NCBI GenBank assembly: GCA_026004675.1
Contig: BPJP01000005.1
Coordinates: forward strand, 62,001-126,000
DNA length: 64,000 nt
Origin: Gemmatales bacterium
GTDB taxonomy: Bacteria; Planctomycetota; Planctomycetia; Gemmatales; Gemmataceae
Reading direction: 5' to 3'
Position numbers and translations under genes: made by a program. The notes below the pieces were generated by a model. It searched no databases, had not been told where the DNA came from, and saw nothing but the letters and a program-made list of their open reading frames with translations. The stretch's first letter is position 1. Every line of letters starts with the position of its first letter. This document shows positions 49,186 through 56,927 of the stretch, one piece after another.

Positions 49186-52100
49186 ATGCACCGCGAAATC
49201 TCACACGTTGACCAGGCTTTTCACGAAGAAAGCAACCTGTCGCTCTATTTTCTGACAGGTTTGCTAGGTCTATTGATCGGTGCCGACCTCTGGCCGGCGT
49301 TTGCATCATGGCTTAGTGACACGGGCGTGTCGCTTCCTACCTGGCCGAGGGAAGTTTATGGTTATCGGCTGGCCTTGATCGCTGCCGTGCTCGGCGGCGC
49401 TCGCATCCTCTACACGTCGCTCGAAAGCCTGTTCGAAGGGAGGATCGGCGCCGACCTGGCCTTGGCTATTGCCACCATTGCGGCCATCCTCTTCAACAAG
49501 CCGCTGGTAGCCGCCGAGGTGGTGTTTATCGGCATGGTGGGGGAATGCCTTGAAGCGATCACGTTCGCCCGCACGCAAAGTGCCATTCGCAAAATCGTCG
49601 AGGTCACGCCCAGGCGGTGCTGGCTCTTGCGCGACGGACAGGAACATCGTGTCTTTACGCACGAGTTGCAAGTCGGCGATCGCGTGGTGGTCAAACCCGG
49701 GGGCAAAGTCCCGGTCGATGGGACAGTAATTGAAGGACGCTCGGCTCTGGATATGAGTCCTTTGACGGGAGAGAGCCTGCCCGTCGATGTCGGGCCGGGA
49801 GACGAGGTCCTAGCCGGGTCGATCAATCAATTCGGTTCGTTGACCATCGAAGCGGCGCGAGTGGCCGAGCAAACAGTAGTCGGCCGCGTCATCGAACTGA
49901 CATCCAAGGCGCTGAAGGACAAAGCCTCGATCGAGCGAACAGCCGACCGAATGGCAAGGTTTTTCCTGCCGATCGTTTTAGTTCTCGCCGCCCTGACGTT
50001 TGCGGTAGGGTTGTATCTCAATTACGGCGGCGAGGGGGAACGCACTTTCTTCGCTGCCGCCCGCAAAGCTATTGATCCGACATTGGCGGTTCTCGTGGTT
50101 GCCTGCCCTTGTGCCTTGATCCTGGCTACTCCCGCCGCCATCATTGCCGCGCTAGGGCGACTCGCCGGCACGGGTGTCCTCATCAAGGGGGGGGTCTGCC
50201 CTGGAACGGCTCGCTTTTGTGTCACGCATCGCTTTCGACAAGACAGGAACGCTGACCGAAGGAAAGCTCGAACTCGGCGACATCGTCGCGTTCGATGACA
50301 AAAGTGAAAACGAATTGCTCCGTTTGGCCGCATCGGCAGAGCAACGCAGCGAACATCCCATTGCTCGCCTGATTGTCAGCGAAGCGCGCAACCGCAGCCT
50401 TGAGTGTCTTCAGCCTGCCGAGTTTCAAGCCTTTCCAGGGGCCGGAGTCATCGCGACTTTCGTCGCCGAAGGGGAGACCACCGGGAGCAAACTGGTCGTT
50501 GGCAATCGCCGTCTCATGGAGGAGTTCGGCATCACTCTATCCGAGGCTGTTTCACACGCACTGACCCGGCTCGATGAATCGGGACAAACACCGCTCATTA
50601 TTGCCGAGATCCGAGAACTCGCCGGCGAGGGCGGCCCGCGCCGCGAAGGCGATGAGCATATCACCGCCAAGCCGCAAAAAACCATGCCCGCGCGCATCCT
50701 CGGCGTCATCGGCGCCCGCGACCGCGTCCGTCCCGAAGCCTCGACGATTCTCGGCGAACTGCGCAGCCTCGGCATCTACGAGATCGCACTGCTAACCGGC
50801 GATCGCACTGCTGTCGCCAAATCGCTGGCCAACTATCTCGATATCCGGGAAGTCCATGCCGAATTACTTCCCGTCGATAAAGCCGAGTTCATCGCACACT
50901 GGGCTGAGAAAGGGGCAGGCGATCTTGACGAAAAACGCTCGTTCTGGCGGTCGATCTTTGAAGTCCCGACCTCAGGCAAAGTCGCCATGGTGGGCGACGG
51001 CATCAACGACGCGCCCGCGTTGGCTCGTGCGGATGTCGGCCTGGCCATCGGCGGAACCGGTACCGACATCGCCGCGGAGGCCGGCGACGTCGTCCTTATG
51101 GGCGATCCCCTTCGTCCCTTGCCCTTGTTGATTCGACTTTCGCGCGAGACCGTCCGGATTATTCGCCAAAACATCATCGTTTTCGCTTTCATCGTCAATG
51201 GTGTTGGCATCCTGCTTACCGCCTGGTTGTGGCCGCTTTTGACTCCCGTCGACTGGCACGAAGAAGCACCGCTGGCGGCGGTCTTGTATCACCAGTTCGG
51301 CTCGCTCGCCGTCTTGCTCAATTCCATGCGATTGCTCTGGTTCGAACGAGCCGCCAGCAATCCCACCTGGCAACGACTCAAACGGTGGTTGCAGACTGCC
51401 GACGAATGGCTTGGTCGTGTGGATCTGGAAGAGGGACTGCATTGGCTTTCGCACAACCTGAAACCAGTCGGTCTCGTGTCGGCGGTGGTACTGCCCGTGT
51501 TCTGGCTTTTGCTCGGCTTGACGCAAATTGGTCCTGATGAAATCGGCATTGTCCGCCGTTTCGGACGCCCGCTGCCCGAAGACTTGCCGCCTGGTCTGCA
51601 TTGGCGCTGGCCGTGGCCCATCGAGGACGTCATCCGCATCCAACCGAATCGAGTCCGATCTGTCGAAGTCGGCTTCCGCTCCGGTCAGGGAGTCGGCACG
51701 TCGTCGGGCGCCTGGTCGACCGAACATAGAGATGTCATCCAGCTTCGGCCCGATGAGGCGGTGATGATCACCGGTGATGGCAATCTGATCGAATTGCAGG
51801 CGGCGGTCCGCTACACGATCGCCGACCCGCGGACTTACGTGTTCGACATCGAGTCTCCCGACGAGATCATTCGGGCTGCCGCCGAATCGGTGTTGCGCGA
51901 AACCGTGGCACAACGCAAGTTCGTGGACCTGCTGACGGCACAACGTGGCCAGCTTCAGGCTGACGTGCTCAACGCATTGGATCGACGTTGCCGGCAATAC
52001 GGCAGCCATGGCCTTGGCATTCGACTTACTTCGCTGTCTTTGACCGACTTGCATCCGCCACGCGAGGTCGTGCGGGCTTACTATCAGGTGGCGCAAGCGA

Positions 52101-52474
52101 TGGAGGCTCGCGACCGACGTATCAATGAAGCCGAGGCCCAGGCGCTGCGAAAAACCCGCAGCGAAGAAGCCAGTGCGTTTCAAAAAGAATGCCAGGCCGA
52201 AGCCGAGAAGTACGGCAAGATCAAGTCAGCGGAAGCGGACCGGGCCTATTTCAACCTGCGCTTGCAATCGCGAACCCGTTTGACCGATTTTCGCATGTTC
52301 TGGGACGCCATAGGCGGCGCCCTGAACGGACGAAGCAAAATCATCATCGACGCGGATAAGGTTCCCGGGCGTCGCCAACTGCTGATCTTCGATCCGGAAG
52401 ACCTCAGGCCGCCTCCGGTTTTTTTGCCCAACCGGGGGCTTCCGCCTCGCCAAACATTACCAGACGGCCAGTGA
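49186..52474 (+). CDS. P1B-type cation ATPase fused to an SPFH (HflK-like) domain, with +1 frameshift
   Basis: ATPase part: membrane helices, LTGESLPV (actuator, residues 194-197), VVACPCALILATP (CPC metal site, about 307-309), DKTGTLTEGK (phosphorylation Asp), GDGINDAPAL (hinge) and two late helices with HQFGSLAVLLNSMRLLWFER. There is no N-terminal heavy-metal-associated domain. In the same frame, after about 50 residues of linker, comes a new membrane helix (VVLPVFWLLLGLTQIGPDEI). An SPFH domain follows: RRFGRPLPEDLPPGLHWRWP, VMITGDGNLIELQAAVRYTI and an Ala/Glu-rich helix. The frames meet at a G8 run (50187-50194); seven G would join them as about 1095 residues. The frame is open from ATPase to SPFH, so the fusion itself does not depend on the correction. 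Confidence 0.85.
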
Positions 52475-52511
52475 CGTCGATGAATTTGTCGATCTGATTG
52501 AGGAATAACCT

Positions 52512-53483
52512 ATGCGACTGCTGTTGGGTCTTATACTCGTTAGCGCCGCTTTGGTAGCTGTTTTCACCTGCTATTTCACCGTCGATCGGGCGGAATATGT
52601 CTATGTGACGCAGTTCGGTCGTCCCGTGGCGACGTACGATGGCGCGACGGAAGGCGGCTGGCATTGGAAATGGCCCTGGCCAATCCAAACGGTGCAACGG
52701 CTCGATGCCCGGCTACAGGTGTTCGACCTGAGCGAGCTGGAGTTGGTCACGCATGATCCCGAAAAGCAGACCGTCGAGCAGACACTGACGGTGATGGCCT
52801 ATGTCTGCTGGCGGATCGCCGGTAAAGAACACGTCGACCGCTTCATCCGCAGCGTGGGGTCATCCGACCGAGCACAAGCCATTCTGGGCGAACGGGCCCG
52901 CAGCCAATTGGGGGCGGCCATCGCCCGGATGGAAATGGACCATTTGTTCAATACTGCCCCTGGCGTGGTGGCGAGTGAGAGAAGCAAGCTGCGACAGTCT
53001 CTGTTGGACGAGCTTCGACCGAGTGCCCTGCAAGAATATGGCATCGAAGTTGTGGATATTCGGTTGCGGCGAACGAACCATCCGGAAGCCGTTCGTGACG
53101 ACATTTATCGTCGGATCGAAAGCGAACGGGGCAAGAAAGTGGCGGATTATGAAAGTCAAGGCGTCAAGTTAGCAGCCGAGATTGCCGCCAAGGCAGAACG
53201 CAAGGCGCGTGAGATTCGAGCCGATGCTGACGCCGCCGCCCGTCGGCTGATCGGCGAGGGAGACGCCGAGGCAGACCGCATCCGCAACGAGGCCCAAAGC
53301 CAAGACCCGGAATTCTACGCTTTTTTGAAAAAGCTGGAAGAATACAAACGAATTCTTGGCGACAACAAGACTGTGCTGTTGCTTTCGAGCCATCGGGAAT
53401 TGTTCGACATGCTGTTCAAGCCACCTGCCCCGAACGGCGCGAAAAAACCAGCGACACCGATGGCACCGGCAGGAAATCATTGA
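52512..53483 (+). CDS. SPFH-domain protein, HflC/HflK-like
   Basis: 323 residues. N-terminal membrane helix (LLLGLILVSAALVAVFTCYF), then an SPFH/Band 7 domain: YVTQFGRPVATYDGATEGGW, VEQTLTVMAYVCWRIAG, IEVVDIRLRRTNHPEAVRDD. The long Ala/Glu coiled helix (AAEIAAKAERKAREIRADAD) is typical of HflC and is followed by EFYAFLKKLEEYKRIL. HflK and HflC form the cage that controls the FtsH protease. The gene starts 37 bases after the ATPase-SPFH fusion, so it is in the same operon. Confidence 0.88.
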   Translation: MRLLLGLILVSAALVAVFTCYFTVDRAEYVYVTQFGRPVATYDGATEGGWHWKWPWPIQTVQRLDARLQVFDLSELELVTHDPEKQTVEQTLTVMAYVCWRIAGKEHVDRFIRSVGSSDRAQAILGERARSQLGAAIARMEMDHLFNTAPGVVASERSKLRQSLLDELRPSALQEYGIEVVDIRLRRTNHPEAVRDDIYRRIESERGKKVADYESQGVKLAAEIAAKAERKAREIRADADAAARRLIGEGDAEADRIRNEAQSQDPEFYAFLKKLEEYKRILGDNKTVLLLSSHRELFDMLFKPPAPNGAKKPATPMAPAGNH

Positions 53484-53497
53484 GAAGTGCGACCATC

Positions 53498-54443
53498 ATG
53501 AAAAAATTTTTCATTTTCGTTGCGGGTATTGGCCTGCTTGCCTACTTGGCGACCGGCGTGACGCAGGTGCAGCCAGGCGAACGAGCCGTGGTGCGTCGAT
53601 TTGGCCGAGTCCTGGAGTACAAGCCGAAGCCTGGGTTGTGGATCGGTTTGCCTTGGGGGATGGATCGTGTCGATCGCGTACCTGTTGATTTTGTCCGGCG
53701 AGTGCGAGTCGGATACCGCCCGGAAGAAGACCAGGCCGGCGCCCCCCCTGCCTCCGGGACAACTTCTCACCGGCGACCATAACCTGATCAACATTCAAGT
53801 CATTCTCGTCTACAGCGTCGTGGAAGACGAAGTGGAAGACTATGTGATTCAGGAACCGGAACGAGTAGATGAAATGGTGCAACGCGTTGGCGAGGCGGCC
53901 TTGGCTGAGTGGGTCGCAGAAAGGACCGTGGACGATGTGTTGCTGCGGGACAAAGCGCATTTGCCAAAATGGTTGGCTCAGGAAACGCAAAAGCGCATTC
54001 AGCCTTATCGACTAGGCATCCGCATTCGCAACGAAGCCTCGGTCGCTTATTTATATCCTCCTGATGAAGTGAAAGCTGCTTTCGATCGCGTTACTCGCGC
54101 TTTAGCAAAGATCGAGACCATGAGAAATCGGGCCGAAGAGGAAGCCGTTGCGACCATCCGCCAGGCCGAACAATACGCTTTCGAGAGACTTGAATTAGCC
54201 AAAGCGTACAAGACTACACAAAAGAAACTAGCGGAGGCGGATGCGGAGATCTTTCACAAGCGACTCGCCAAATACCGGGAGTTGAGTCGAAACAACCCCG
54301 ACTATCTTGCCGCGATATGGTGGAACGAAATGGGCCAACTCTTCGCCCAACTCAAGGACAACGGGCAGCTCGATCTGCTCGACAAACACTTGAGCGGCGA
54401 CGGTCTTGATATCACGTTGTTCCCACCGATGCCGGGCAAGTAA
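53498..54443 (+). CDS. SPFH-domain protein, HflK/HflC-like, with +1 frameshift
   Basis: The ATG at 53498 gives a membrane helix (FFIFVAGIGLLAYLATGVTQ) then VQPGERAVVRRFGRVLEYKP and WGMDRVDRVPVDFVRRVRVG. The frame breaks in a C7 run (53742-53748). In the +1 frame the domain resumes with GQLLTGDHNLINIQVILVYS, the counterpart of the HflK core MLTGDEN-VV-V block. RTVDDVLLRD, a long charged helix and LFPPMPGK at the end follow. Six C would restore one protein of about 314 residues. It is the third SPFH protein in a row and is back-to-back with the minus-strand HD-GYP gene. Confidence 0.83.
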
Positions 54444-55610: not shown

Positions 55611-56735
55611 TCAAGCGACAGTTAGCTCTTTGCCCGTTTGCCAGGCAGTATCCTTGCGGACGACTTCCCGGTACAGCGTATCCCGTTCGACGGGAATGCG
55701 TCCAGCTTCTTCGATCAGTCGGCGAAGCTGCGCCACGGTCAATTCCTGAGGCGAATCCGAACCGGCATCGTGATAGATTTTTTCATGCACGACCGTGCCA
55801 TCCAGGTCGTCGGCACCATAGCTGAGTGCCAATTGGGCAGTGGGAATCCCAAGCATAACCCAGTAGGCTTTGATGTGGGGGAAGTTGTCGAGCATCATTC
55901 GGCTGATCGCCATGATCTTGAGGTCCATCAGGCTGCTAGGTTTTTGCAAATGGGACAGTTTGGTGTTGTCGGGGTGGAAAGCCAGTGGAATGAAAGTCTG
56001 AAAGCCGCCGGTGATGTCTTGCAGTTCGCGGAGCCTGCATAAATGATCGATGCGATGCACTGGTTTTTCGATGTGGCCATAAAGCATGGTGGCATTGGAC
56101 CGCAGCCCCAGTTCGTGTGCTTCGCGGTGGATGCGCAGCCAGGCGTCGGCATCGGACTTGTGTTCGCAGATGATTTCACGGATTTCGGGGTGAAAGATTT
56201 CGGCCCCGCCGCCAGGTAAGCTGCCTAGGCCGGCCTCTTTAAATTCCGCAAGGATGTCGCGTGTTGGCCGACCTGTCAGCTTGGAAAACCAATACCACTC
56301 GACAGCCGTGTACGCCTTCAGATGCAGACGGGGATGGGCCTGGTGGATGAGACGAACCACATTCAAATACCATTCGTATGGTAGTTGGTGGTGCAAGCCG
56401 CCAACGATGTGCAATTCCGTCGCACCGCGTGCCTCGGCTTGGGCGGCACGTTCCAGAATTTCTGCGTCCGACATCACATATCCTTTGGGACTCTTCAGGT
56501 CGGCCCGAAACGCGCAGAAAATGCACCGGTAGACGCAAACGTTGGTGGGATTCAAATGAGTGTTGACGTTGTAATAGGTGTAGTTCCCGTTTTTGCGTTC
56601 CCGGACGATATTGGCCAGTTCGCCCAGCGTGAAGAGATCGGCGTGCTCTTCCAAGTAGAGTCCATCGTCGAACGAGAGACGTTCGGCTGCTAAAACCTTC
56701 TCTCGAATCTCGTGAATGCGGGAATCCTGACGCAT
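55611..56735 (-). CDS. mqnE: Aminofutalosine synthase, menaquinone pathway
   Basis: 374 residues from the ATG at 56735 (AAGG upstream). HLNPTNVCVYRCIFCAF carries the radical-SAM C-x3-C-x2-C cluster. YYNVNTHLNPTN and GGLHHQLPYEWYLNVVRLIH with LKAYTAVEWYWF are typical of MqnE rather than CofH. GHIEKPVHRIDHLCRLRELQ and MLDNFPHIKAYWVMLG complete the family pattern. MqnE joins 3-(1-carboxyvinyloxy)benzoate to the adenosine moiety of SAM to make aminodeoxyfutalosine. This shows the organism uses the futalosine route to menaquinone. No other mqn genes are in the window. Confidence 0.92.
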   Translation of the reverse strand: MRQDSRIHEIREKVLAAERLSFDDGLYLEEHADLFTLGELANIVRERKNGNYTYYNVNTHLNPTNVCVYRCIFCAFRADLKSPKGYVMSDAEILERAAQAEARGATELHIVGGLHHQLPYEWYLNVVRLIHQAHPRLHLKAYTAVEWYWFSKLTGRPTRDILAEFKEAGLGSLPGGGAEIFHPEIREIICEHKSDADAWLRIHREAHELGLRSNATMLYGHIEKPVHRIDHLCRLRELQDITGGFQTFIPLAFHPDNTKLSHLQKPSSLMDLKIMAISRMMLDNFPHIKAYWVMLGIPTAQLALSYGADDLDGTVVHEKIYHDAGSDSPQELTVAQLRRLIEEAGRIPVERDTLYREVVRKDTAWQTGKELTVA

Positions 56736-56927
56736 GGAAAATGCCTTCAAACAAAAAGCCTGTTTCTTTTTTTCATACGGAAAACAGGTCGCTTTTCCAG
56801 CGATTGCCTCTCAGGCCGGCCTTCGCTCAACTCGCCCTTTGTGCATGATTTCTTCTCCAAACCCACCCGTCCACGTCCTATACTAACAGCCTTATGATTC
56901 GTAACGTGCGCTTTAGCCGAGTCCGCC

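Follow-up and report, generated by a model that had tools for sequence, protein, structure and literature searches.

A P1B-type metal ATPase fused to an HflK-like SPFH protein in Planctomycetia, and its unfused counterparts

Can a metal pump be part of an SPFH ring? SPFH proteins are present in all domains of life, and to our knowledge it is mostly unclear what the bacterial rings contain, FtsH in E. coli apart. A natural covalent fusion would name one such client, a metal pump. The window analysed here, a stretch of 64,000 nucleotides from a Gemmatales bacterium (contig BPJP01000005.1), raises this question. A sequence-only reading of it had pointed out a P1B-type ATPase that runs on into an HflK-like SPFH domain and is followed by two further SPFH genes. 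All features of this locus lie on the + strand.

Is the first part of the fused gene a P1B ATPase? A Pfam profile search placed E1-E2_ATPase, HAD hydrolase and Band_7 domains on the frames 49186-50298 and 50174-52474. The N-terminal half of the ATPase (49186-50194; PF00122, 2.9e-52; TIGR01525) comprises the first helices, the TGES actuator domain and CPC. The C-terminal half (50195-51339; PF00702, 1.1e-21) comprises the P and N domains and the last two ATPase helices, within which HQFGS is found at 51290-51304. The motifs from which the enzyme had been recognized were all located: CPC at 50104-50112, DKTGT at 50237-50251 and GDGINDAP at 50993-51016. A one-base frame shift splits the ATPase in a run of eight G (50187-50194) that is absent in relatives; resequencing of this stretch had been advised. 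Programmed frameshifting was rejected at this site, since the G run is not conserved.

Residue conservation was counted over an alignment of 59 non-redundant fusions. DKTGT, with its phosphorylated Asp, GDG and ND are each present in 59 of 59, as are the metal motif CPC of M4 and the M6 residues His, Ser and Asn of H-x3-S-x5-N. TGE is present in 58, the remaining one having SGE, so that the GE of this motif is kept in all 59, as is the His of the N-domain. The fusions thus combine the catalytic motifs with the x-P-C metal motif of M4 that mark P1B-type metal ATPases, and the alignment shows the catalytic and CPC residues to be intact. Which subclass might this be? The usual motif definitions of P1B-1 and P1B-2 do not cover CPC with H-x3-S-x5-N. 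The P1B-4 subclass, defined by SPC in M4 and HEGxT in M6 (PMC8880997), was rejected: the fusions have CPC, not SPC, and their M6 motif is H(Q/E)x(G/A)S, not HEGxT.

How is the ATPase joined to the SPFH domain? The continuity claimed for the two parts held up: a single open frame, 50174-52474, runs from the HAD half through the last ATPase helices and a ninth helix into the SPFH domain. Because the HAD domain, the last ATPase helices and the SPFH domain share this frame, the fusion is independent of the frameshifts. Hydropathy along the 59-row alignment places a cytoplasmic linker at about 51340-51466 and the ninth membrane helix at about 51467-51523, a placement backed by helices 681-731 in the structure model of a relative, L053 (mean pLDDT 81.8, pTM 0.60). 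There follows an HflK-like SPFH domain with a coiled coil (51524-52474; PF01145, 1.8e-25). Against the HflK equivalog TIGR01933, with its cut-off of 159.4, it scores 136.9 bits; two relatives, L067 and L097, score 165.4 and 164.6. E. coli HflK provides the nearest solved structures to the SPFH part. With eight ATPase helices and one more, the SPFH domain would lie on the outer side of the cytoplasmic membrane, where it also lies in HflK; we infer, with the model as a guide, a nine-helix topology with an extracytoplasmic SPFH domain.

Is the fusion peculiar to this genome? The class was searched by alignment, over 398 genomes. Fused frames were recovered in at least 143, the source genome included, this tally being a lower bound; a few matches run into a contig edge or contain a stop. 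The suggestion that the same fusion be sought elsewhere was borne out, for it occurs as an intact single frame, of about 1000-1170 codons, in relatives. The possibility that ATPase and SPFH are always separate in relatives falls away, as the intact frame is present in at least 140 of the 398. It occurs in at least 78 of 95 genomes of the same family, in five of seven of another family in the order, and in members of three further families. In a sample of the phylum, one genome of another class (G160) also has the fusion, with HflC and HflK2 alongside. Intact recurrence in more than 140 genomes means that the fusion is neither chance nor chimera. We consider it confirmed as real and conserved. 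In the tree all fused ATPases fall into one clade, within which the branching tracks the host families; vertical descent from a single fusion would give this pattern. The fused SPFH domains, too, form one clade.

What accompanies the fusion? It is followed by HflC (52512-53483; TIGR01932, 145.6 bits, passing the cut-off of 134.4; PF01145, 1.7e-24) and by a second HflK-like SPFH gene, HflK2 (53498-54443), which is frameshifted; its larger piece matches PF01145 at 3.6e-9 and TIGR01933 with 82.3 bits. The profile search found Band_7 on the frames 52512-53483 and 53601-54443. The intergenic gaps of 37 and 14 bases reported earlier were correct on recomputation. At the level of these profiles, both partners are shown to be SPFH proteins of the HflK/HflC type. 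HflK2 being HflK-like as well, the idea that the fusion is the organism's sole HflK was ruled out. Beyond the cluster no further HflK or HflC was found in the source genome.

Fusion, HflC and HflK2 are adjacent in 25 of 36 loci with flanking sequence; at the other 11, HflC/HflK2 are missing next to the fusion. Five of the 11 genomes whose fusion stands alone were searched for them: both were found elsewhere in the genome in all five, paired in four. All 10 checked genomes that have the fusion also have HflC, against 11 of 34 that lack it (Fisher p 1.4e-4, ignoring shared ancestry), and other genomes carry HflC/HflK2 without the fusion. Among the loci compared there is no widely conserved neighbour beyond the three genes. 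Genes for cytochrome oxidase subunits I and III lie directly downstream of the cluster in one genome (L008 10328-12720). Near the cluster of the window lies a radical SAM gene (55611-56750) that we read from its sequence as MqnE-like, and similar proteins occur near the clusters L067, L081 and L083. As neither feature is general, a conserved wider neighbourhood was rejected. Matches to Zur or Fur boxes upstream were no better than in shuffled sequence.

How might the three proteins work together? We infer from their sequences that the fusion, HflC and HflK2 may co-assemble and have a role in metal homeostasis. The fused gene would encode a bifunctional protein of nine helices, a P1B transition-metal ATPase whose cytoplasmic C-terminus is extended by a helix and an extracytoplasmic HflK domain. 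This protein and its two partners, HflC and HflK2, would form a ring of the HflK/HflC type. The pump would be positioned at the ring wall or within it, and would transport metal to or from the outer space enclosed by the ring. That a transition-metal pump is built into such a ring by way of the fusion is the reading we favour, and we hold it to be somewhat probable. A ring with as many as 12 ATPases would be hard to accommodate sterically, which counts against it, as do the 11 unlinked loci and the occurrence of HflC/HflK2 in genomes lacking the fusion. If it is true, the fusion offers a ready marker for cryo-EM and links HflK/HflC to metal homeostasis.

Need the ring be closed? The SPFH part might instead collect pumps in a membrane microdomain that lacks a closed cage, in the way that PacL proteins scaffold the P-ATPase CtpC. 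SPFH proteins are known scaffolds, and PacL1 and CtpC form foci and high-molecular-weight complexes that have been termed metal efflux platforms (PMC9374683). However, the partners here are specifically HflK and HflC, the pair known for a closed or nautilus-like cage, and flotillin is dispensable for the CtpC platforms (PMC9374683). We judge this arrangement to be unlikely. A role of the HflK part in quality control strikes us as distinctly improbable. There it would hand the pump to FtsH, or shield it, so that proteolysis sets the amount of pump. FtsH is indeed modulated by HflK/HflC (PMC12005517), and the source genome has three FtsH genes. But no FtsH gene was identified within the cluster, and a degradation tag needs less than a covalent fusion kept over the whole class.

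What of the frameshifts? The sequence-only reading had flagged the site in the ATPase and missed the one in the third gene, a one-base shift in a run of seven C (53742-53748). These runs are the longest of G or C in their vicinity. Elsewhere in the same assembly (contig C11, L004 1113-2241) a YdjI-like SPFH gene is broken in a run of six G, which points to homopolymer errors in the assembly. Such errors are the likeliest cause of both shifts, a recent true mutation being the alternative. That the shifts are real and the operon a decaying pseudogene in the source organism is very improbable: one operon does bear two of them, but both fall within long stretches of G or C with the motifs intact, the G6 break is of the same kind, and the intact relatives would be unaffected by such a reading.

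Is the partnership confined to the fusion? An unfused, four-gene form consists of a multi-TM HflK, HflC, HflK2 and a free-standing P-type ATPase nearby. Within the class it was seen in two genomes (L101, L107), and elsewhere in 20 of 20 loci fetched from other classes (L114-L133), which had been picked for nearby ATPase and HflK matches. These represent 20 of 60 genomes with a multi-TM HflK; by a rough estimate, the proximity of an ATPase in 20 of 60 is far above chance. Outside Planctomycetota, where plasmids were searched and genome contigs scanned once with a peptide pattern, plasmids of Klebsiella, Rhizobium, Burkholderia and Paraburkholderia have the order HflK-HflC-SPFH-ATPase. Of the sequence-only reading, the conserved fusion beside two further SPFH genes is supported, the cage around the pump being putative; the partnership itself reaches beyond the fusion, with unfused clusters in both Planctomycetota and Proteobacteria. 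Taken at the sequence level, the fusion joins two families already known, and a broader unfused system lies behind it.

Do the unfused and fused ATPases share one origin? Those of the unfused clusters, whichever of the two phyla they come from, group in a single clade (support 100), apart from the fused clade. Since the two lie in separate clades, P1B ATPases appear to have been joined on more than one occasion to HflK/HflC genes, the deep branches of the tree being weak; for the same reason, properties cannot be transferred from the unfused-cluster ATPases to the fused ones. The unfused P-type ATPases L101 7240-9231, L107 2064-4013 and L009 5074-7029 have CPG or CPV in place of CPC, with the catalytic motifs intact. 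In the complete-looking, 3.9 Mb genome G127, the cluster ATPase (L118) is the only E1-E2 ATPase match at E 1e-20. The HflK of this locus (L118 6333-8369) and its orthologues in L114-L133 begin with a multi-helix domain of some 300 residues. Considered as possibly of CDF origin, this domain has no Pfam match and no conserved HxxxD; its Foldseek matches to CDF transporters are weak (E 0.017-0.06). On a plasmid of Aquibium oceanicum (NZ_CP018172.1; L164 5322-6869) an HflK (TIGR01933, 215 bits) has an N-terminal Cation_efflux domain (PF01545, 4.5e-25). Its neighbours are HflC, a second HflK, a peptidylprolyl isomerase, a P1B ATPase, PCu(A)C and SCO. Together, the pump-HflK fusion and the looser proteobacterial partnerships suggest that cells build metal pumps into rings. 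Whether transition-metal transporters in HflK/HflC-type rings, each a walled membrane compartment, are a general design spanning Planctomycetia, the Aquibium CDF protein and the unfused clusters is a tentative idea, about which we have more doubt than confidence.

How does the fusion compare with known systems? It shares its catalytic motifs with the P1B ATPases ZntA, CopA and CoaT; the modelled ATPase part of L053 matches the fold of ZntA (4umw) with a TM-score of 0.86, normalized by the target, and also matches CopA. Its M6 motif is similar to the HEGxT of P1B-4, yet none of the ZntA, CopA and CoaT classes cleanly fits CPC with H-x3-S-x5-N, and among these proteins the fusion alone has a C-terminal SPFH domain. 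With the HflK-HflC-FtsH complex of E. coli, in which 12 HflK and 12 HflC form a cage around FtsH (PMC12005517), the cluster shares SPFH proteins of the HflK and HflC types (TIGR01933, TIGR01932). E. coli HflK, however, has one helix and no transporter, whereas the HflK of the fusion bears a whole ATPase and is accompanied by a second HflK. In the mycobacterial PacL1-CtpC platforms, too, a scaffold protein organizes a P-ATPase in the membrane (PMC9374683, PMC13043812); unlike the planctomycete fusion, that scaffold is a small PacL protein, neither SPFH nor fused.

The sequence-only reading knew of no experimental description. This holds for the ATPase-HflK fusion, of which we found none in open-licence papers, but not for the same parts unfused, which have been published as the zinc-responsive hmtA cluster of P. 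aeruginosa. That cluster (PA2434-PA2439) likewise contains a P-type metal ATPase and three proteins of the HflK/HflC family (PMC4542158, PMC11761036). HmtA (PA2435), a P-type importer, and the SPFH genes PA2437-PA2439 are up 5.6- to 14.4-fold in a znuA mutant depleted of zinc, and a weak Zur site lies nearby (PMC4542158); in proteomics the proteins follow the same trend, significantly for some only (PMC11761036). In the window, as in HmtA-type clusters, a P-type ATPase is encoded together with HflK, HflC and another SPFH protein, except that here it forms one protein with the first HflK. The likeness is drawn from the published description, our tree being without HmtA, and in the hmtA cluster ATPase and SPFH proteins are separate genes, unlike the fusion. 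If the fusion does build its pump into a ring, a role is suggested for the three SPFH genes beside hmtA in Pseudomonas.
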